A stretch of 64,000 nucleotides of DNA from Paramagnetospirillum caucaseum (GTDB lineage Bacteria > Pseudomonadota > Alphaproteobacteria > Rhodospirillales > Magnetospirillaceae). The position numbers were made by a program, and so were the translations under genes. The stretch covers positions 1-64,000 of the forward strand of contig NZ_AONQ01000004.1 of the NCBI RefSeq assembly GCF_000342045.1. Reading direction: 5' to 3'. The notes under the pieces were generated by a model that saw only the letters and a list, made by a program, of their open reading frames with translations, made no database searches and was not told the origin of the DNA. This document shows, piece by piece, positions 25,153-52,797 of the stretch (the stretch's first letter is position 1; each line of letters opens with the position of its first letter).

Positions 25153-25911
25153 TTACTTCATCGGCATTCGCGCCGCGATGCGGTCCATCCATGCGCTGGG
25201 CAGGCAGCCGGCCATGCGGGCCATGACGTGCATGGGCCAGGGAAAGGCGATGCGGCCCCGGTTGCCTTCCAGGCCGCGCGCCATGATCCGGCTGGCCCGT
25301 TCCACATCCATCAGGAAGGGCATGCGGAACCGGTTCACCGCCGTCATGGGCGTTTCGACGAAGCCGGGGCAGATCACCGAGACGCCGATCCCGGACGGCG
25401 CCAACTCGCCCCGCAGCCCCTCGCCCCACACCCGCATCGCGGCCTTGGAAGCGCAATAGGCCGGCGCGCCGGGAAATCCCCGGAAGCTCGCCAGGGAACT
25501 CATGATGCCGATCTGGCCCCGGCGGCGCGCCTGCAGCAGGGGGATGGCCGGCATGACGGTGTTGAACACCCCGTCCACGTTGACGGCGAAGATGGCCCGA
25601 ACCTGTTCCGCCGTCTCGCCGCCGTCGCCGGTTCCCGCCGAGATGCCGGCATTGGCGATGACCAGGTCGAGGGGACGCAGGGCCTCGGCGGCCTCGACCC
25701 AGCGCGCGGCGGCGGCCCGGTCGGTGACGTCCAGCCGGGTGGCGTGGGCCTCGGCGCCCATGGTCCGGCACTGGCGGACGACCTCCTCCAGCCGGGCTTG
25801 GTCCCGCCCCGACAGGTGCAGGGCGATCCCCGGCGCGGCGAAGGCCCGCGCCAGCCCGGCCCCCAGGCCGGACGACGCGCCGGTGATCAGGATGGAGGAA
25901 AAGCGCGTCAT
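25153..25911 (-). CDS. Short-chain dehydrogenase/reductase
   Basis: 252 residues of the classical SDR family. NAD(P) binding: TGASSGLGAGLARAF at residue 10, LDVTD, and NAGIS. Catalytic: Ser in IMSSLASF, YCASK with Tyr and Lys four apart, and PGFVETPM after. The C-terminus (FPWPMHVMARMAGCLPSAWMDRIAARMPMK) may be membrane-associated. Substrate unknown. Its ATG overlaps the HepT-like stop by four bases. Confidence 0.9.
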   Translation of the reverse strand: MTRFSSILITGASSGLGAGLARAFAAPGIALHLSGRDQARLEEVVRQCRTMGAEAHATRLDVTDRAAAARWVEAAEALRPLDLVIANAGISAGTGDGGETAEQVRAIFAVNVDGVFNTVMPAIPLLQARRRGQIGIMSSLASFRGFPGAPAYCASKAAMRVWGEGLRGELAPSGIGVSVICPGFVETPMTAVNRFRMPFLMDVERASRIMARGLEGNRGRIAFPWPMHVMARMAGCLPSAWMDRIAARMPMK

Positions 25912-26264
25912 CCGCCGTTGCCGTTCTTCTCGTTGAGCAGGGATTTGAGTGGCCCCAGTAGCGGCGGCAGGTCATGGCGGGCCGAATCGAAGACGATGCA
26001 GGGGTCCACCGAATGGTATTCGTGCACCAGGATGTTGCGCATCTCGGTCATGCGGTTCCACGGGATGTTGGGGTGGCGCTCCGCCACCTGGGCGGGAACG
26101 CGCTTGGCCGCCTCGCCGATGATCTCCAGGTTGCGGACCACCGCGTCCACCGTGCGGTCGTCGGCGACGAAGCGGCGCTCGTCCATGCCGTCGATATAGC
26201 GCCGGATGCGCTCGATGGCCTCGATCATGTCCTCGATGCGGACCCGCCAATCCTTGAAGGTCAC
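25908..26264 (-). CDS. hepT: HepT-like ribonuclease toxin of an MntA-HepT pair
   Basis: A 118-residue HEPN-domain protein (DUF86 type). The RX4HXY active site is present: R76-NILV-H81-E-Y83. HepT toxins cleave RNA and are neutralised when MntA adenylylates the active-site Tyr. Start: GTG at 26264, three bases after the mntA stop, with GAGGGAG upstream; no ATG fits. The gene lies directly downstream of the nucleotidyltransferase and overlaps the following SDR gene, so the toxin sits in a larger chromosomal operon. Confidence 0.88.
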   Translation of the reverse strand: MTFKDWRVRIEDMIEAIERIRRYIDGMDERRFVADDRTVDAVVRNLEIIGEAAKRVPAQVAERHPNIPWNRMTEMRNILVHEYHSVDPCIVFDSARHDLPPLLGPLKSLLNEKNGNGG

Positions 26265-26266
26265 GT

Positions 26267-26704
26267 TTACACCACTCCCTCGCCGTAGACCGGCAGACAT
26301 TCGTCCAGGATGCGGCGCTGCAGCCGCGGCTTGATGTTGCCCGAGGTGATGAGGTCCACCGGGCGGCCCAGCAGACCTTCCAGGGCGTGCTTCAGATCCA
26401 CGTAGGCGAACAGCCCGCCGGGCCGGCCGGGGAAGAAGTCCACCATCAGGTCGATGTCGCTGGTGGGCTTGGCCTCGTCCCTGACCACCGAGCCGAACAG
26501 GAACAGCGCCTTGACCCCGAAGCGCTCCATGATGTCGGGCCGCGACTGCAGGCGGCCGATCACCTCGTCGCGGGCGGCCGGGTTGCGGCGGCGCGAGATG
26601 CGTCCGGCATAGGCCTTGACCGCGTCGGCCTTGTCGGCCGGCACGCGCACCACGATTTCCACCACGTTGGGGCGGCCGCGCTCGGGGCGTCTTCGTTCCT
26701 TCAT
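26267..26704 (-). CDS. mntA: MntA-type nucleotidyltransferase antitoxin
   Basis: 145 residues. The minimal nucleotidyltransferase signature GSX10DXD is exact: G71-S72 ... D83-I-D85, in LFLFGSVVRDEAKPTSDIDLMVDF. The C-terminus (ALEGLLGRPVDLITSGNIKPRLQRRILDE) matches the family. It differs from a standard ~100-residue MNT antitoxin by an N-terminal extension of about 45 residues, Arg/Lys-rich then VVEIVVRVPADKADAVKAYAGRI. The extension could bind nucleic acid or HepT. Transcribed with hepT; divergent from yicC. Confidence 0.88.
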   Translation of the reverse strand: MKERRRPERGRPNVVEIVVRVPADKADAVKAYAGRISRRRNPAARDEVIGRLQSRPDIMERFGVKALFLFGSVVRDEAKPTSDIDLMVDFFPGRPGGLFAYVDLKHALEGLLGRPVDLITSGNIKPRLQRRILDECLPVYGEGVV

Positions 26705-42732: not shown

Positions 42733-44225
42733 TGAGCGAGACCATTTCCGGCAACCGCGCCCTGCAGATCGAAGAAAAGCTGATCTTCGAGCTGGACAAT
42801 CCCGGCTGCGTCGCCATCGACCTGCCCGAGCCGGCGCCCTTCGACCTGGACCGCCTGGGCGGCGCGCCGCGGCGGGGCCGGGTGGCGCTGCCCGACCTGT
42901 CCGAGCCCCAGGTGGTGCGCCACTACACCCGCCTGTCGCAAAAGAATTACGGCATCGATAGCGGCTTCTATCCCCTGGGGTCGTGCACCATGAAGCACAA
43001 TCCCCGCCTGTCGGAGAAGGTGGCCCGTCTGCCCGGTCTGGCCGACCTGCATCCGTTGCAGCCGCAGAAGACCGTGCAGGGCGCGCTGGAGGTGATCGAT
43101 ACCCTGGCCCATTGGCTGAAGGAGCTGACCGGCATGCCGGCGGTAGCCATGAGCCCGGCGGCCGGCGCCCATGGCGAGTGGTGCGGCCTGATGGCCATCC
43201 GCAGCGCCCACGAGGACAGGGGCGAAGGGCACCGCAAGCGCGTGCTGGTGCCGGAAAGCGCCCACGGCACCAATCCCGCCTCGGCGGCCATGTGCGGCTA
43301 TACCGTCGATTCCATCCCGGCGCTCGAGAACGGCAGGGTGGATCTGGCGGCGCTGAAGGCCAAGCTGGGCCCCGACGTGGCCTGCCTGATGCTGACCAAC
43401 CCCAACACCTGCGGCCTGTTCGAGACCGAGATCGTCGAGATCGCCGCCGCGGTGCACGGGACGGGGGCCTATTTCTACTGCGACGGCGCCAATTTCAACG
43501 CCATCGTCGGCCGGGTGAAGATCGCCGATCTCGGCATCGACACCATGCACATCAACCTGCACAAGACCTTCGCCACGCCCCATGGCGGCGGCGGTCCCGG
43601 TGCCGGCCCCACCGTGCTGTCGGCGGCGCTGGCTCCCTACGCCCCCGTTCCCTATGTGGTGCATGGGGCGGACGGGCTGGAACTGGTGGAGGGCAAGCGC
43701 GACGGCGCCAAGCCGTTCGGCCGGGTCAAGGGCTTCCACGGCCAGTTCGGCGTGTTCATCCGCGCCTTGGCCTACATCCAGTCCATGGGGGCCGACGGGT
43801 TGCGGCAGGCGTCCGCCGACGCGGTGCTCAACGCCAATTACCTGCTGGCCTCGCTGAAGGAAGACCTGTCGGCCTCGTTCGACGGTCCCTGCATGCATGA
43901 GGCACTGTTCGACGACCGTTTCCTCAAGGATACCGGAATCACCACGCTCGACTTCGCCAAGGCGATGATCGACGAGGGCTATCATCCCATGACCATGTAC
44001 TTCCCGCTGGTGGTGCATGGCGCCCTGCTGATGGAGCCCACCGAGACCGAATCCAAGGACACCCTGGACCAGTACATCGCCGTGGTGCGCGGACTGGCCG
44101 CCAGGGCCAGGGCGGGCGCCGCCGAGGACTTCAAGGCGGCCCCCCGCCTGACGCCGCGCCGCCGTCTGGACGAGACCCTGGCGGCCCGCAGCCCGGTGCT
44201 GCGCTGGAAACCCGCCGCCGAGTGA
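42732..44225 (+). CDS. gcvPB: Glycine decarboxylase P-protein subunit 2 (PLP-binding)
   Basis: 497 residues, the C-terminal half of the split P-protein. Decarboxylates glycine with PLP, whose Lys is in NLHKTFATPHGGGGPG. QKNYGIDSGFYPLGSCTMKHNPR and ESAHGTNPASAAMCGYTVDSIP are typical. AAGGAGG lies seven bases before ATG 42732, which shares one base with the gcvPA stop. Last gene of the riboswitch operon, followed by a strong hairpin. Confidence 0.97.
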   Translation: MSETISGNRALQIEEKLIFELDNPGCVAIDLPEPAPFDLDRLGGAPRRGRVALPDLSEPQVVRHYTRLSQKNYGIDSGFYPLGSCTMKHNPRLSEKVARLPGLADLHPLQPQKTVQGALEVIDTLAHWLKELTGMPAVAMSPAAGAHGEWCGLMAIRSAHEDRGEGHRKRVLVPESAHGTNPASAAMCGYTVDSIPALENGRVDLAALKAKLGPDVACLMLTNPNTCGLFETEIVEIAAAVHGTGAYFYCDGANFNAIVGRVKIADLGIDTMHINLHKTFATPHGGGGPGAGPTVLSAALAPYAPVPYVVHGADGLELVEGKRDGAKPFGRVKGFHGQFGVFIRALAYIQSMGADGLRQASADAVLNANYLLASLKEDLSASFDGPCMHEALFDDRFLKDTGITTLDFAKAMIDEGYHPMTMYFPLVVHGALLMEPTETESKDTLDQYIAVVRGLAARARAGAAEDFKAAPRLTPRRRLDETLAARSPVLRWKPAAE

Positions 44226-44233
44226 CGATCCGC

Positions 44234-44266
44234 ATGAAGGGCGGAGGGAAATCCTCCGCCCTTCAT
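44234..44266 (+). terminator. Strong hairpin closing the gcv operon
   Basis: ATGAAGGGCGGAGG (44234-44247) pairs perfectly with CCTCCGCCCTTCAT (44253-44266) around GAAAT: a 14-bp stem eight bases after gcvPB. There is no T-tract, so it may end transcription with Rho or protect the 3' end. Confidence 0.6.
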
Positions 44267-44356
44267 CACAATGCGCTTCGGAATCACACCAACGTTCACT
44301 TGCCCCACGCCAACCTTTGGCCTAGGCTTTCAAGCCTGAGGACGAGGGGAATGGGC

Positions 44357-46036
44357 ATGGCGGACAAGGACGATCTCGGCCGGTCGAGCGACATGTATGT
44401 CGCCTTCGCCTTCGCGGCTGCCGACGTTCTTCTCGAACTGGATTACCAGGGCAAGACCGCTTTCGCGGTGGGCGCCGCCATGGCGCTGCTGGGACGCGGC
44501 GCCCGGGCACTGACCGGCCAGCCGCTGTCCGGCATCATCCATCCCGGCGACCACACCGCCCTGGCCCAGGCCCTGAAGCAGATGGCCGGCGGCGAGCGGG
44601 TGCGCAACGCCATGCTGCGCGTGCTGCGTCCCGACGGCAAGAATTCCGAGGTGACGCTTTCCGGCTACCGCCACCCCAGCACGCCCGACCGCCTGATGGT
44701 GGCCTTGGGCCATCCCGGCGGCTTCCACGCCCACAAGGAGGACCGGGTGGGCGAGACCGGGTTGCTGGACAAGGACAGCTTCCAGGCCATGGCGGCCAGC
44801 CTGCTGGAAAGCGCCGCGCCGGACGAGCCCTACCAACTGACTCTGGTCGAGCTGCCCAAGATCGACGCCCTGAGCGGCAATGCCGAGGCGCAGGAAGCCT
44901 TGAGCACCGAACTGGGCAACCGGTTGAAGGCGCTGTCGGTGGGCGGCGACGGCGTCGGCCAACTGGATGACGGCAAGTTCGGCGTGCTGCATTCGGCGGC
45001 GGTGTCCGCCGATTCCATCAGCCAGTCGGTGACCCAGGCGGCGGCCGTGGTGCTGCCCGATTCGCCGCCCATCCATGCGACCCTGGCCACCTTGATGCTG
45101 GACGTCGCCGACGTGCCGCCGGAGGAGGCGGCCCGCGCCCTGACCTACACGCTCAACCGCTTCGCCATGGAGGCGGAGAACGGCGGCAACCTCGCCGACC
45201 TGATGAAGGATCTGCAGCCCCGCCTGTCGGCGACGGTCAAGCAGATGAACGACGTGCGCAACACAGTGACGGGCGGCGATTTCGACCTGATGTTCCAGCC
45301 CATCGTCGATCTGTGGACCGGCGTGGTGCACCATTTCGAGTGCCTGGTGCGCTTCAAGGGCGAGGACAACAAGTCGCCCTACGAGACGGTGACCTTCGCC
45401 GAGGACACCGGCATGGTCGGCATGCTGGACATGGCGCTGCTGGAGCGCGCCATCAAGTTCATGCGCTCCAACGTCGCCAATACCGAATCACTCAAATTCG
45501 CCGTCAACCTGTCGGGCTATTCCCTGTCCGATCCCACGGTGGTGCGGCGCTTGAAGGAAATCCTCACCACCACCAAGGATCTCAGGAAGCGCCTGGTGTT
45601 CGAGATGACCGAATCCGCCCAGGTCCGCGATCTCAAGGCGGTCAACGACGTCATCCAGGCCATCCGCCAGCAGGGCCACGAGGTCTGCCTGGACGATTTC
45701 GGCGCCGGCCACGCCGCCTTCCACTACCTGCGCGCCCTGAAGGTGGACAACGTCAAGATCGACGGCTCCTACATCAAGGACGCCATGCGCAACAACGAGG
45801 ACGTCTCGTTCATCAAGGCCATCGTCGGCCTGTGCACCGAACTGGGCGTCACCACCACCGCCGAATACGTCGAGGACGCCGAGACCGCCAACCTGCTGAA
45901 GCTCTTGAAGGTCCGCTTCGGTCAGGGCTGGTATTTCGGCAAGCCGCTGCGCCCGTCGTCGGAGGACATCCGTACCGCCTGGCGGACTCCGACGCTGGGC
46001 TGGAACAAGGGGCTGCTCTACTTCACCAAGGGGTGA
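44357..46036 (+). CDS. PAS - degenerate GGDEF - EAL protein
   Basis: 559 residues, no membrane helix. A PAS-like domain (about 10-115), a degenerate GGDEF (about 130-295) whose active site reads LDDGKF instead of GGDEF, so it cannot make c-di-GMP, and an EAL domain (about 305-550). In the EAL the motif is ECL, with the other catalytic residues present: NLS, EMTES, LDDFGAG, VKIDGS, AEYVE, QGW. Probably a phosphodiesterase or c-di-GMP receptor gated by PAS. I prefer ATG 44357 (GAGGGG seven bases upstream); 44351 is an alternative. It stands alone. Confidence 0.88.
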   Translation: MADKDDLGRSSDMYVAFAFAAADVLLELDYQGKTAFAVGAAMALLGRGARALTGQPLSGIIHPGDHTALAQALKQMAGGERVRNAMLRVLRPDGKNSEVTLSGYRHPSTPDRLMVALGHPGGFHAHKEDRVGETGLLDKDSFQAMAASLLESAAPDEPYQLTLVELPKIDALSGNAEAQEALSTELGNRLKALSVGGDGVGQLDDGKFGVLHSAAVSADSISQSVTQAAAVVLPDSPPIHATLATLMLDVADVPPEEAARALTYTLNRFAMEAENGGNLADLMKDLQPRLSATVKQMNDVRNTVTGGDFDLMFQPIVDLWTGVVHHFECLVRFKGEDNKSPYETVTFAEDTGMVGMLDMALLERAIKFMRSNVANTESLKFAVNLSGYSLSDPTVVRRLKEILTTTKDLRKRLVFEMTESAQVRDLKAVNDVIQAIRQQGHEVCLDDFGAGHAAFHYLRALKVDNVKIDGSYIKDAMRNNEDVSFIKAIVGLCTELGVTTTAEYVEDAETANLLKLLKVRFGQGWYFGKPLRPSSEDIRTAWRTPTLGWNKGLLYFTKG

Positions 46037-47660: not shown

Positions 47661-48458
47661 CTATTCCCCCACGTTGAGCAGCGCGCCCCGCACCCGCGCG
47701 CCGTGCCACGCCCACAGGAACAGGCCGGCGCCGAGGGCGAGGTAGAGGGCGTTGAGCGCCAGGGCCGAGGCCAGCAGGTCGAGGCGCATATCGCCCTCGA
47801 ACACCACGGCGCGCATGCCTTCGAAGACGTGGGCGGGCGGCAGCGCCCAGGCCACCGGCTGCAGCCAGGCGGGCAGGGTGGAGATGGGGTAGTAGATGCC
47901 GGCCAGGGGGGCCATGGCGAAGATCAGCACCCAGGCCAGGCTCTCGGCCCCCAGGCCGAAGCGCAGCACCAGGGCGGACACCGCCAGGCCCATGGCCCAG
48001 CCGCTGACCATCAGGCAGAACCAGAAGGCCACCAGGGGCGCGCCTAAGGTGAAGATGGAATAGTGGTAGAGCGGGATGGCCAGCAAGGCGGCGGGCAGCA
48101 CGCCGATCACCGTGCGGATCAGGCTCATGGTCAGCATGGAGATCACCAGTTCGTGGGGGCGCAGCGGGCTGACCGACAGGTGCCCCAGGTTGCGCGACCA
48201 CATCTCCTCCAGGAACGACAGCGCCACCCCCAGATTGCCGCGGAACATCACGTCCCACAGCAGCACCGCGCCGATCAGGATGCCGCCCGCCTGGGCCACC
48301 CAGGTGGAATGCTCGGCGAAGAAGCGGTTGGTGAAGCCCCACACCACCATGTTGACGGCGGGCCAGTAGGCCATCTCCAGCAGGCGCGGCCACGAGCCCT
48401 TGAGGATGTAGAGGTGCCTGAGACACATGGCCTCGATGCGGCGGGTCGAGAGGGTCAT
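47661..48458 (-). CDS. ABC-2 type transporter permease
   Basis: 265 residues with six membrane helices, of the ABC-2 exporter class (NodJ/DrrB-like). LRHLYILKGSWPRLLEMAYWPAVNMVVWGFTNRFF is the family start, and LEEMWSRNLGHLSVSPLRPHELVISML matches the conserved central loop. GGGAGG precedes the ATG. It reads in the same direction as the ATPase, 139 bases downstream of it, with a palindromic repeat between. Substrate unknown. Confidence 0.88.
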   Translation of the reverse strand: MTLSTRRIEAMCLRHLYILKGSWPRLLEMAYWPAVNMVVWGFTNRFFAEHSTWVAQAGGILIGAVLLWDVMFRGNLGVALSFLEEMWSRNLGHLSVSPLRPHELVISMLTMSLIRTVIGVLPAALLAIPLYHYSIFTLGAPLVAFWFCLMVSGWAMGLAVSALVLRFGLGAESLAWVLIFAMAPLAGIYYPISTLPAWLQPVAWALPPAHVFEGMRAVVFEGDMRLDLLASALALNALYLALGAGLFLWAWHGARVRGALLNVGE

Positions 48459-48474
48459 GGCGCGGCCTCCCAGC

Positions 48475-48586
48475 CCCTGTCATCCCGAGCGCAAGCGAGG
48501 GATCTCCGCCTGGAGTGATGGTGCCGATTCTGAAATGCCGGACCAGAAGGAGATTCCTCCTCCCGATGGTCGTCGGAATGACAGGG
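48475..48586. repeat. 112-bp interspersed palindromic repeat element
   Basis: The ends CCCTGTCATCCCGA (48475-48488) and TCGGAATGACAGGG (48573-48586) are inverted repeats differing at one base. Just inside, GGGATCTCC faces GGAGATTCC. The motif GTCATCCCGAGCG..GCGAGGGATCTCC is common in intergenic repeats of alphaproteobacteria. No transposase. It separates the ABC ATPase from its permease. Confidence 0.7.
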
Positions 48587-48597
48587 AGGATGAAGGC

Positions 48598-49341
48598 TCA
48601 TGACGTTGCCTCCGGCCGTTGCCGGTCCCGGGCGATGTCGAGGAACACCTCTTCCATGCTGGCGCGGCCGAAGCGTTCGATCAGGGCGGCGGGCGAGCCC
48701 TGGTCGACGATGCGCCCCTGCTTCATCATCAGCACCCGGTCGCACATGCGCTCGACCTCGGTCATGTTGTGGGACGCCAGCACGATGGTGGCGCCGGTAC
48801 GCTCGCGATAGGCCTGGAAATAGCTCCGCACCCAATCGGCGGTGTCGGGGTCGAGCGAGGCGGTGGGCTCGTCGAGCAGCAGCAGGTCGGGCTTGTTGAG
48901 CAGGGCCTTGGCCAGGGCGACGCGGGTCTTCTGCCCCGCCGACAGCTTGCCCGCCGGGCGGTCGATGAACTCGCCCAGTTCCAGCTCGTCGGCCAGTTCG
49001 GCGATGCGGTCCTTCAGGTGCTCCACCCCATAGAGGCCGCCATAGACCTTGAGGTTCTGGCGCACCGACAGGCGGTGGGGCAGGTCCACATAGGGGCTGG
49101 AGAAGTTCATGCGCGGCAGGACGCGGTAGCGGTGCCGCACCATGTCCTCGCCCAGCACGGTGATGGAGCCGGACGTGGGCAGCAGCAGGCCGAGCAGCAT
49201 GGACAGCGTGGTGGTCTTACCCGCCCCGTTGCCGCCCAGCAGGGCGGTGGTCGAGCCGGCGGCGATGGTGAAGTCGAGGCCGTCCACGGCCTTGACCGGG
49301 CCGAAGCTCTTGAACAGGGACCGGACCTCGACGGCGTTCAA
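48598..49341 (-). CDS. ABC transporter ATPase of an ABC-2 exporter
   Basis: 247 residues. Walker A GGNGAGKTTT, signature LSAGQKTRVALAKAL, Walker B LLLLDEPTASLDPD and switch His in ASHNMTEVE. NodI/CcmA-like. The start is a TTG at 49341 that shares bases with the stop of the upstream EAL-like gene (TTGA); no ATG or GTG fits before the conserved VRSLFKSFGPVKAVDGLDF. This coupling ties the exporter to the two EAL-like genes. Confidence 0.9.
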   Translation of the reverse strand: MNAVEVRSLFKSFGPVKAVDGLDFTIAAGSTTALLGGNGAGKTTTLSMLLGLLLPTSGSITVLGEDMVRHRYRVLPRMNFSSPYVDLPHRLSVRQNLKVYGGLYGVEHLKDRIAELADELELGEFIDRPAGKLSAGQKTRVALAKALLNKPDLLLLDEPTASLDPDTADWVRSYFQAYRERTGATIVLASHNMTEVERMCDRVLMMKQGRIVDQGSPAALIERFGRASMEEVFLDIARDRQRPEATS

Positions 49342-50597
49342 CCTCGGGGACGCGCCCTGAGGCCCCGCTTGCGCGGGTCGCCCTGCACCATGGATTCGAT
49401 GTGGCGGCCCTGGAACAGGGTGATGCCCACCGAATGGCCGTATTCGATGCCGGCCTGGTTGTCGCAGCGGCATAGGATGATGCGGGTGACGCCGATGCGG
49501 CGCAGCGCCTCGGTCTTCTTGTCCTTCTCCTCGGTCAGCGAGGGGTCCCACACCAGCTTGATCAGGTCGGCGCCCAGGCGCTCGCGGTCGACGAAGGGCA
49601 GCTGGGAATAGGTCAGGCCGTCGATACAGATGCGGTAGCCGCGGTCATGGGCGAAGTCGCGCGCGAAGAGATAGCCGCCCAGGTCGGCGAAGATGTCCAC
49701 CTTTTGCAGTTCCAGAACGATGGTGCCGCGCATACCCGCCTTGACGTTGTCGTCGAACACCAGGAATTCCGGCGACAGGATGGTCGAGACGTTGAGGTTG
49801 ATGCTGATGTCGCCTTCCAGGGTGCGGTCGTCGTGCTTGTTCAGCATGGACAGCACGCGGCGGTCGAGCGTCTCGGTCAATTGCTGGAACAGCCAGGGGC
49901 TGGAATTGACGTTGACGCTGGGGAACAGGGTCTGGCGCAGGTCGGCGATGGAGATGAACAGCTCGTGGAACACCGGGGCGGGCGGCGACTTGCCGACCAC
50001 GGCGCACACCGCCTGGCGGCGCATCAGGTTGGCGAGGTCGGCCTGGCCCAGCGATGATTCCACCCGGTGCAGCAATTCCGGGGTAAAGGGGCTGCCCTTG
50101 GGCTTGTTCGCCTGGAGCTTGGCGTCCTGGGCGTTCTTTTCCGAGGTGGCGTTGCGCTTGGCGTTCTCGTCCTGGACCATCTTCTGGGCCAGGGCCAGCA
50201 GCATGTCGTATTCGCGGTCCAGGGAATACCAGGTGCAGAACAGCGCCTGGCGGGTCCGCTGTTCCTCGATCACCAGGGGGTCGTCCGAGAACAGGAAGCG
50301 CAGCTTGACCACCGCCGCCTCAACCTCGTCCTGGGCCTGGGCCTTGTAGATGACCATCAGATCGGCGTTGGCCAGGGTGAACACCTGGGCCTGCATCAGT
50401 TTGACCAACTGCTCGAAGGTGTTGCCGGCGATGCGGGTGTGGTGCTCGCGCCGGTTCTGGGCGGCCAGTCCCGACAGGTGGACATGCACCGCCCGGCGGT
50501 CGTGGCGGTGGCGCTCCAGCCGGTGGATGTAGTCGAGCAGCAGGCTTTCCTGGCTGTTGGGCCGGGGCATGCCGGCGGAAGGCGGAGCGTTCATCAT
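49338..50597 (-). CDS. Degenerate EAL-like domain protein, second of a tandem pair
   Basis: 419 residues, no membrane helix. The second half aligns by pattern to an EAL barrel: INLNVSTILSPEF (NLS strand), IVLELQKVDIF (ExTE strand), RICIDGLTYSQLPF (DDFG strand), LIKLVWD (KxD strand), IILCRCDNQAG (where AEGVE would be) and ITLFQGRHIES (QGY). The EAL motif, the second Asp of DDFG and the Glu of AEGVE are missing, so no phosphodiesterase activity is expected. The first ~130 residues are a conserved helical region shared with the upstream paralog. ATG 50597 overlaps the stop of that paralog (TGATG), and the stop overlaps the ATPase TTG. Confidence 0.8.
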   Translation of the reverse strand: MMNAPPSAGMPRPNSQESLLLDYIHRLERHRHDRRAVHVHLSGLAAQNRREHHTRIAGNTFEQLVKLMQAQVFTLANADLMVIYKAQAQDEVEAAVVKLRFLFSDDPLVIEEQRTRQALFCTWYSLDREYDMLLALAQKMVQDENAKRNATSEKNAQDAKLQANKPKGSPFTPELLHRVESSLGQADLANLMRRQAVCAVVGKSPPAPVFHELFISIADLRQTLFPSVNVNSSPWLFQQLTETLDRRVLSMLNKHDDRTLEGDISINLNVSTILSPEFLVFDDNVKAGMRGTIVLELQKVDIFADLGGYLFARDFAHDRGYRICIDGLTYSQLPFVDRERLGADLIKLVWDPSLTEEKDKKTEALRRIGVTRIILCRCDNQAGIEYGHSVGITLFQGRHIESMVQGDPRKRGLRARPRG

Positions 50598-51928
50598 CAG
50601 CGCAGCGCCTTGAGCACGGGGAACAGGTCCAGCATGTCGTTGTTGCCGCATTCGGCGCGCGGCCGGCCGTTGATGACGGCGTGGCGGTGGGTGCATTGCT
50701 GCAGCGTGCAGGCCGACGACTTGTCGCACTGGGCCATGGTGACGGCGGAGATCATGGAATCCAGGAAGCGGCCCTGGAACATGCGGATGCCCTGGGCCAG
50801 ACCCCACGACACCGAGGTCTCGGAATCGCAGCGCGACAGGATCACCCGGTCGAAGCCCACCGGCCCCAGGGCGGCCAGCAGTTCGGCGGTCTTGATGTCG
50901 TCGAGCATGTCGTTGCTCCACGCCACCTTGACGTAGTCGGTGTCGTAAAGCTCGGCGTCCATGAACTGCAGCGTCACCGGGCTCATGCCGTCCAGCACCG
51001 AGCGGTGCCCGCGCGAGCGCAGCAGGTCCCGCGTGCGGAAAAAGCCGTCCAGGTCGTTGAAGATGTCGAGCAGCTGGAATTCCACCACCAGCCCGGCGCG
51101 GCCCCGGATGCTGGCCTCGAACTGCTGGAACACCGGCGTCTGCACGGTGGCCATGTTGAGGTTGACGGAAAAGGCGCTGGGCATCTTGCGGAAGCCCACG
51201 TCCTGCAGCACCGACAGCACGCGCAGGTCGAGAACCTGCGACAGGTGCTGGAACAGCCAGCGGTTGGACAGGATGTTGACGTCGGGGGCCAGGGCCTTCT
51301 GCAGGTCCATGATGGACATGAAGAATTCCTGGAAGGCCACCTCGGCGTGCATGTTCTCGTTGATGCGGATACAGGCCTGGCGCCGCACCACGCCGGCGAT
51401 GTCGGTGGCGCCGATGCGTTCCAGAACCCGGGTGAGGTTCTTGGCGTCCAGCGGCTGGATCTGCGGCGCGGTGCGCTGGTCGGCCACCGACTTCTTGGCG
51501 TCGATCACCATCTGCCCGCACAGCGAGAAGAAGGAATCGTAATCGGCTTCCAGGTCGTAATAGCTGACGAAGCGGTCCTGTCCGTCGGGGGATTCGGCGT
51601 AGGTCAGCGGGTCGGTGGAGAACAGGGCGCGCAGCTTGTAGACGATGGCGTCCAGGTCGGCGAAGCGGGCATCCTTGCAGATCAGGATGATGTCCGAATT
51701 GGTCATCAGGAACATCTGGCCGCGATAGGCGTCGACCATGGATTCGAACATGCGGAAGGCAATGCGGATGCGGCCCTCCTCCCGGTTGGCCGGGAGAAGG
51801 CGGGACAGGTGCAGGTGCAGCCCTACCCGGCCCTCGCGGATTCTGCCGACCCGTTCGGCAGCATCGTAGAGAAGGCTTTCCGGCGTGACGACTTCCTGCT
51901 GTCTTCCTCCGAACGCGCCTGCGTTCAT
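50597..51928 (-). CDS. Degenerate EAL-like domain protein, first of a tandem pair
   Basis: 443 residues, clearly paralogous to the gene downstream (NRWLFQHLSQVLDLRVLSVL versus SPWLFQQLTETLDRRVLSML; VNLNMATVQTPVF; VVEFQLLDIF; SVLDGMSPVTLQF; YVKVAWS; VILSRCDSE; IRMFQGRFLDS). The EAL Glu and AEGVE Glu are absent. Unlike its paralog it ends in a Cys-rich tail (AQCDKSSACTLQQCTHRHAV...AECGNN) that could bind metal. I chose ATG 51928 over GTG 51934. First gene of a four-gene minus-strand unit ending in the ABC permease. Confidence 0.8.
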   Translation of the reverse strand: MNAGAFGGRQQEVVTPESLLYDAAERVGRIREGRVGLHLHLSRLLPANREEGRIRIAFRMFESMVDAYRGQMFLMTNSDIILICKDARFADLDAIVYKLRALFSTDPLTYAESPDGQDRFVSYYDLEADYDSFFSLCGQMVIDAKKSVADQRTAPQIQPLDAKNLTRVLERIGATDIAGVVRRQACIRINENMHAEVAFQEFFMSIMDLQKALAPDVNILSNRWLFQHLSQVLDLRVLSVLQDVGFRKMPSAFSVNLNMATVQTPVFQQFEASIRGRAGLVVEFQLLDIFNDLDGFFRTRDLLRSRGHRSVLDGMSPVTLQFMDAELYDTDYVKVAWSNDMLDDIKTAELLAALGPVGFDRVILSRCDSETSVSWGLAQGIRMFQGRFLDSMISAVTMAQCDKSSACTLQQCTHRHAVINGRPRAECGNNDMLDLFPVLKALR

Positions 51929-52059
51929 TCGCACCCCGATCTCAACGCGCCGCTATTCCCAAAAGTCGGTCGCAACCCCCACTGTGATCCGCCATATATA
52001 AAGGCCCGGTTACCTGGGTGCAAAAAAGTATCATCGGCGAGGCCCCGGCCCTAGTGGAA

Positions 52060-52797
52060 ATGACAGACCAAACCCATAACGTGCCGCCCGGCACCCGCGA
52101 CTACGCCATCGGCGACATTCACGGGCGGCTCGACCTGCTGGACCGCCTGCTGGCCGACATCGCCGGGGACGTCGCCCGCTTTCCGGCCGGGCGGGTGGTG
52201 GTGGTGTTTCTCGGCGACCTGATCGACCGGGGGACGGAATCCCGCCAGGTGATCGAGCGGGTGTGCGGCGGCCCGCCGGCCGAGGGGCCGCTGGCCGGGG
52301 CGCGCTATGTCTGCCTGCGTGGCAATCACGAAGATATCCTGCTGCAGTTCCTGGCCGATTTCTCCGTCGGGCCGCGCTGGTTCCGCAACGGCGGGCTCGA
52401 GGCGGTGCGCTCCTATGTGGGCGAGGTGGATGCCAGGCTGGCCCACGACCATCCCCGCCTGCAGAAGCTGCTCTACCGGGCGCTGCCCACCCATCACCTG
52501 CGCTTCCTGTCGTCCATTCCCACCCGGCACGAGGAAGGCGACTATCTGTTCGTCCATGCCGGGGTGAGGCCGGGCATCGCCCTGGACCGCCAGGACCCCT
52601 TCGACCTGATGTGGATCCGCGAACCCTTCCTCAGCGCCCGCGAGGCGCGTTCCAAGATGGTGGTGCACGGCCATACCGTGGTGATGGACCCCGAACTGCG
52701 CCCCAACCGCATCGGCATCGATACCGGGGCCTGGCGCACCGGGCGGCTGACCGCCCTGGTGCTGGAAGGCGGCGGGCGGCGCTTCCTGTTCACCTGA
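52060..52797 (+). CDS. PPP-family serine/threonine protein phosphatase
   Basis: 245 residues. Calcineurin-like metallophosphoesterase with the PPP signatures [20 protein letters not shown] and RGNHED, then HAGVRPG and VVHGHT for the other metal ligands, in an arrangement like phage lambda phosphatase and PrpA. Dephosphorylates proteins or small phosphodiesters. Divergent from the EAL-like pair; a TATATAA motif lies in the shared 131-bp gap. I chose ATG 52060 (MTDQTHNVP). Confidence 0.9.

Follow-up and report, generated by a model that had tools for sequence, protein, structure and literature searches.

The 64,000-nt window analysed here (positions 1 to 64,000 of Paramagnetospirillum caucaseum contig NZ_AONQ01000004.1) carries two neighbouring genes, here called A and B, which lie upstream of the genes for an ATP-binding cassette (ABC) ATPase and an ABC-2 type permease. 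An initial annotation had described this four-gene order, and its coordinates, strand (minus) and order agreed with the sequence and the open reading frames (ORFs). A and B belong to a widespread, little-known family of paired GGDEF-EAL proteins in which both domains are degenerate, and most likely act as receptors or adaptors of the cyclic di-GMP (c-di-GMP) pathway. We assign a probability of about one half to the reading that the two work as a pair in this pathway, as a non-catalytic receptor or adaptor, and that their exporter neighbour reflects an inherited position.

The A and B proteins were 37% identical over 411 columns, in agreement with their proposed paralogy. The EAL barrel fold that had been suggested for them, with structure prediction as the check, is present in both, as found by Foldseek on AlphaFold models, HHalign and Pfam EAL matches of the homologue rows. 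The models had a mean predicted local distance difference test score of 87.8 and a predicted template modelling score (pTM) of 0.57 for B, and of 88.6 and 0.68 for A. With both models, the top Foldseek matches were dual GGDEF-EAL structures, namely MorA (4rnf), RbdA (5xgb) and LapD (6pwj), with E values from 9e-12 to 5e-9 within each top ten. Since the alignments extended over 429-467 columns for B (rows 1-14) and 414-442 columns for A (rows 1-18), both domains were matched. HHalign against 27 EAL domains from the window's own genome aligned the domain in full, with probabilities of 95 for A and 92 for B over 212-213 columns (P values in Table 1). The Pfam EAL model matched B of the window with an E value of 0.00046 and 20.1 bits, below the cut-off of 31.3, and gave no match to A of the window. 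At an E value of 0.1 or better it matched 48 of the 49 B homologue rows and 34 of the 43 A rows; the best homologues reached 2.1e-9 (B) and 7.2e-9 (A), and some may pass the curated cut-off. A sequence search of solved structures with A alone returned one chance-level match (E 0.71).

Judged from the models, the N-terminal part of A and B is a GGDEF-like domain, which the initial annotation had overlooked. The canonical LGGDEF was aligned with MTNSDI in A and LANADL in B, so that the GGDEF signature is replaced, in an alignment that is not significant by sequence. With both modules apparently present and both catalytically degenerate, A and B would match the dual-degenerate GGDEF-EAL receptor kind.

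The active site of the EAL barrel was compared across the homologue rows. The EAL glutamate had been reported as lacking in both proteins. This was incorrect, and a missing EAL Glu was rejected as a candidate: the HHalign profile alignment placed B E212 and A E201 on this residue, and both were invariant (49/49 B rows and 43/43 A rows). The equivalents of the FQP Gln, NxS Asn, ExTE Glu, first DDFG Asp, catalytic Lys and QG Gln were invariant in the same rows. These include the metal-1 ligand positions, B E212, N267, E296 and D326 and A E201, N256, E283 and D313, which are taken to be equivalent to the metal-1 ligands Glu39, Asn98, Asp130 and Asp160 given for PA3825 in text passages of PMC5301497. 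In all, each family kept seven of nine active-site positions unchanged, far more than the background would give (hypergeometric P 4e-6 for B and 3e-8 for A). The second DDFG Asp was lost, with G in 48 and A in 1 of 49 rows at B 327, and with G in 39, S in 2, N in 1 and R in 1 of 43 rows at A 314. The AEGVE Glu (RocR E352) was absent from all B and A rows, as had been claimed from the window, and was replaced by C/S/A/T/Y at B 376 and by A/S/G/T/V at A 365. Because these two acidic residues are lost, ordinary two-metal hydrolysis of c-di-GMP by A and B is unlikely.

According to passages of PMC6717892, an empty EAL site binds one metal. The conservation pattern looks like selection for a one-metal ligand site in A and B. 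This strict invariance also leaves some room for A and B, or one of them, being enzymes still, as a one-metal EAL variant that would cleave pGpG, c-di-GMP slowly, or another phosphodiester; the metal-1 positions, the Lys and the Gln are kept beyond the needs of a pure scaffold. However, the second DDFG Asp and the AEGVE Glu are gone from all 49 B and 43 A rows, and Glu352 is named among the residues needed for cleavage in passages of PMC12943098. Retained catalysis is distinctly unlikely in our view.

The Cys-rich tail noted in the first paralog was also found in its relatives. All four cysteines of its C-x5-C-x4-C-x14-C pattern occurred together in 21 of 43 A rows, C367 occurred in exactly these 21, and the remaining 22 rows had no tail. 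B carried conserved cysteines of its own at positions 198, 324, 376 and 378 (46, 47, 35 and 40 of 49 rows). The cysteines of A and B may be a metal or redox feature, with shared ancestry as the alternative cause of the covariation. On these grounds A and B could sense metal or redox state, unrelated to c-di-GMP, with the EAL barrel as a mere scaffold, and RegB/RegA-like and SCO1 genes do lie nearby in other groups. We regard this as very unlikely, as half of the A family has no tail, the invariant EAL site residues would be left unexplained, and presence of the family tracks that of GGDEF genes.

The distribution of the pair was examined in 60 genomes of the order (own genome included), 385 of the class and 398 of the phylum. 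A matches were found in 59/60 order genomes, with two or more matches in 56, and spurious ORFs were ruled out by this conservation. The lone exception (G027) is a 0.9-Mb genome that also had no GGDEF match. Both genes were present in 38 of the 40 stretches fetched from the order. B matches occurred in 110/385 class genomes, and all 14 matches at 1e-10 among the 398 phylum genomes were within the class. Among 40 stretches from the class search, four had a tandem, and the other 36, including L203 of the same order, carried just one gene at this position; some of those class genomes carry further unlinked copies. In a tree of 90 rows (22/43 A, 25/49 B, 42 class rows and one third copy; midpoint root, long branches), the A rows clustered with the first genes of the tandems in the four other families (support 98/91), and single copies mostly grouped with B. 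This grouping and the copy distribution are explained by one old duplication, from which the pair appears to descend; outside the order a single gene is usual.

A third, distant paralog was noted in the window genome (G000) on contig C65 at 25378-26460 (L003, L033), with 26% identity to A; by eye it keeps the Q, E, N, E, D, K, QG pattern. Similar weak extra matches were present in other genomes.

GGDEF genes were found in 44/44 tested genomes with the family compared to 3/9 without it, and among genomes of 1.9 Mb or less in 21/21 compared to 3/9 (P 0.00014); the tested genomes were chosen for their small size, are related by descent and are not independent, and the nine family-less genomes came from among those listed in the class search with B. 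The window genome itself (4.9 Mb) has a rich c-di-GMP set, with 52 GGDEF and 35 EAL matches. The retention of A and B, small genomes included, suggests a basic role in c-di-GMP signalling. Since the copies in the window score under the Pfam EAL cut-off, counts of c-di-GMP genes by Pfam hits, such as that in passages of PMC9756655, would miss at least copies like these.

The exporter genes were then compared with the pair. Tight coupling had been read as a shared complex that controls the exporter, with the two proteins as a ligand-sensing pair. The counts of neighbouring genes were made in the best 80 of 297 named B loci, and only loci whose flank was long enough to see the neighbour (with room) were scored. 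A lay directly upstream of B in 72/75 such loci. Downstream of B, the ATPase gene was seen in 44/70 and the permease gene in 43/70, so the order of EAL and ABC genes recurs in relatives. Neither outcome named beforehand as refuting the annotation, a missing barrel or an order absent from all relatives, was therefore seen. In the class, 57 genomes had both B and the permease, 53 only B, 83 only the permease and 192 neither (odds ratio 2.5, P 1e-4), and the two lay within 10 kb in 17 of the 51 class genomes with both placed, own genome included. These associations, together with gene overlaps in the window and a four-base B-ABC overlap in part of the named loci, speak for A and B as a dedicated regulator of the ABC-2 exporter that would form a complex with the ATPase and gate export upon sensing a nucleotide.

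However, the permease was found in 46/60 order genomes and missing at E 1e-40 from 14; A/B matches were present in 13 of these, and 11 of the 13 are at least 90% complete. Pair and exporter thus occurred apart in 13/60 order genomes and in 83 + 53 of 385 class genomes. An obligate partnership is ruled out by these permease-less and B-less genomes. Furthermore, all compared genomes share ancestry, and the linkage of B to the exporter may therefore be an inherited position. Control of the exporter was accordingly unsupported as a general role, with the permease in 46/60 order genomes against 59/60 for A/B, and with regBA genes between B and the exporter in most linked genomes outside the order; we consider a dedicated exporter regulator unlikely. 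The other half of the claim agrees with the data in a non-catalytic version: a ligand-sensing pair is consistent with the fold, with which residues are retained or lost, and with the conservation of the pair. The exporter is a frequent, non-obligatory neighbour of A and B that shares their operon here and may be co-expressed, probably through inherited position. This case warns that gene overlap can arise through inherited position and gene loss.

In the 16 linked loci outside the order, which are the 17 within 10 kb minus the window's own genome, RegB-like and RegA-like genes lay between B and the exporter in 12. In 11 of these, B and the exporter were encoded on one strand and the RegB-like and RegA-like genes on the other; the remaining locus (L192) is rearranged, with B turned. 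The names RegB and RegA are our reading of Pfam domains in HATPase and response-regulator genes. HATPase, response-regulator and SCO1 domains were each named from a Pfam scan of one representative, and some family representatives in exporter loci are reverse-strand or mixed ORFs. Of 20 exporter loci fetched from genomes without B, 12 had the same kinase next to the exporter genes. In the order, the RegB-like kinase was absent at E 1e-40 from 53/60 genomes (at most 29 candidates scored per genome) and lay on a contig different from that of A/B in the other seven. The simplest history is that regBA was lost from between B and the exporter, perhaps repeatedly, so that B came to lie upstream of the exporter genes; alternatively, regBA may have been inserted elsewhere.

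Two further arrangements were observed around the exporter. In L209 (G287), a B-like gene adjoins an ATPase gene with no permease beside it, and the permease match of that genome is on another contig. The exporter pair was often near late cobalamin genes (Pfam DBI_PRT, CobS, CobD and His_Phos) and SCO1, RegB-like and RegA-like genes (L274-L293, L036-L053 and L188-L206).

Several observations weigh against a non-catalytic receptor with an inherited exporter neighbour. B, ATPase and permease genes are directly adjacent with no regBA in G111, G122, G228 and G365, four of the 16 linked genomes from outside the order; the arrangement is therefore not peculiar to the order, and this adjacency favours the exporter regulator. 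The full-length Foldseek TM-scores were modest (0.30-0.41 by query) with a root-mean-square deviation of about 12-20 Å, and together with the pTM values they leave the domain placement uncertain. Such values would be expected if the domains sit at another angle, and they also limit the dual-domain claim. The GGDEF half was not significant by sequence profile (P 0.13 for A and 0.16 for B), so its assignment rests on the fold. The R of ExLxR is seemingly replaced, by S in 49/49 B and 36/43 A rows, in a region of uncertain alignment, and this replacement could weaken binding of c-di-GMP. The shared ancestry and small size of the genomes behind the GGDEF co-presence belong here as well.

In the mechanism that we favour for the non-catalytic receptor, each protein would combine a GGDEF-like N-terminal domain without the GGDEF signature and an EAL barrel in which metal site 1, the Lys and the QG Gln are retained. 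A and B would associate and coordinate a single metal together with c-di-GMP, pGpG or a related molecule. The ligand-bound proteins would then change shape and act on a protein partner. In one subset, the Cys4 tail of A and C367 may make up a zinc or redox site. The exporter would share the operon, most simply after loss of the intervening regBA pair, and would not be a necessary target. A bolder picture joins these elements into an ancient pair that would act as a pseudo-phosphodiesterase, bind a nucleotide and one metal, carry a Cys metal or redox switch on one partner, integrate redox state with c-di-GMP and be wired directly to an envelope exporter in lineages where RegB/RegA no longer intervenes; we hold this to be highly improbable.

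The gene junctions in the window were resolved as follows (Table 1). The stop codon TGA of A (50599-50597) and the ATG of B (from 50597) have one base in common, and the TGA of B (49340-49338) and the TTG of the ABC gene (49341-49339) form a four-base TTGA overlap; both overlaps had been described correctly. A 112-bp element with 14-nt inverted ends separates the ABC and permease genes, which do not overlap in the window. No second copy of an 18-base piece from this element was found in the window, and no sigma-70-like promoter was found in the region. In the named loci, the overlap was four bases for ABC-permease in 21/46 and for B-ABC in 12/47, with starts set by a nearest-ATG rule and with the automatic assignment of A falling on B in about 14 rows. 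In several relatives (L081, L085, L086, L095 and L096), an insertion of about 480-640 bp separates B from the ABC gene. The divergent neighbour of A encodes what we take, from its sequence, to be a metallophosphoesterase-like protein. A separate protein with a strong Pfam EAL match (6e-63) and weak PAS matches is encoded at 44222-46036 (+), 1.6 kb beyond the permease gene.

Table 1. Features of the A/B locus in the window
Feature	Position	Strand	Description	Basis
Gene A	50597..51928	-	443 aa, predicted degenerate GGDEF-EAL protein, Cys-rich tail	ORF; fold; EAL profile P 5.5e-8
Tail of A, residues 401-427, C-x5-C-x4-C-x14-C	50648..50728	-	all four Cys in 21/43 A rows, always with C367	
Gene B	49338..50597	-	419 aa, predicted degenerate GGDEF-EAL protein, paralog of A	ORF; 37% to A; fold; EAL profile P 7e-7
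TTGA overlap, B stop/ABC start	49338..49341	-		sequence
ABC ATPase (DrrA/NodI/ABCA-like)	48598..49341	-	247 aa	Pfam ABC_tran 1.4e-31
Inverted-repeat-flanked insert between ABC and permease genes	48475..48586	.	14-nt arms, 93% complementary	
ABC-2 type permease	47661..48458	-	265 aa	Pfam ABC2_membrane 1e-10
Presumed metallophosphoesterase-like ORF	52018..52797	+	divergent neighbour, often upstream of A	ORF; same place in many loci

The exporter was compared with known systems. The ATPase and permease of the window are of the same broad kind as DrrAB/NodIJ-type ABC-2 exporters, although their genes score under the curated family cut-offs. For the ATPase, NCBIfam drrA gave 203 bits, under the cut-off of 312, and the best solved chains were ABCA4/ABCA7. 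The permease was 54-77% identical to 14 homologues, and its profile had no match at E 0.1 among solved structures.

RbdA (PA0861) and MorA were the best full-length structural matches of A and B. Both are phosphodiesterases with intact EAL motifs, whereas A and B have lost the second-metal residues and the GGDEF signature. Among the entries that our literature search listed, nothing was relevant to such a pair or to a link between EAL proteins and an ABC exporter, and the A/B family was not mentioned in the text passages of PMC9756655 and PMC5845226. LapD, a degenerate GGDEF-EAL receptor of c-di-GMP (passages of PMC3032553), resembles A and B in that both domains of the same two-domain module are degenerate, and it was a top Foldseek match. 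However, LapD is membrane-spanning, contains a HAMP domain and carries the motifs RGGEF and KVL, while the models of A and B show no additional input domain, and the two retain the EAL Glu and form a tandem pair. FimX, another degenerate GGDEF-EAL protein, shares an inactive EAL barrel of similar fold, but it is without the DDFGTG metal motif according to passages of PMC5301497, whereas A and B keep the first Asp and all metal-1 positions. A and B are known in kind from LapD and FimX; their pairing, their retained one-metal site and the Cys tail are new as far as our literature search shows.

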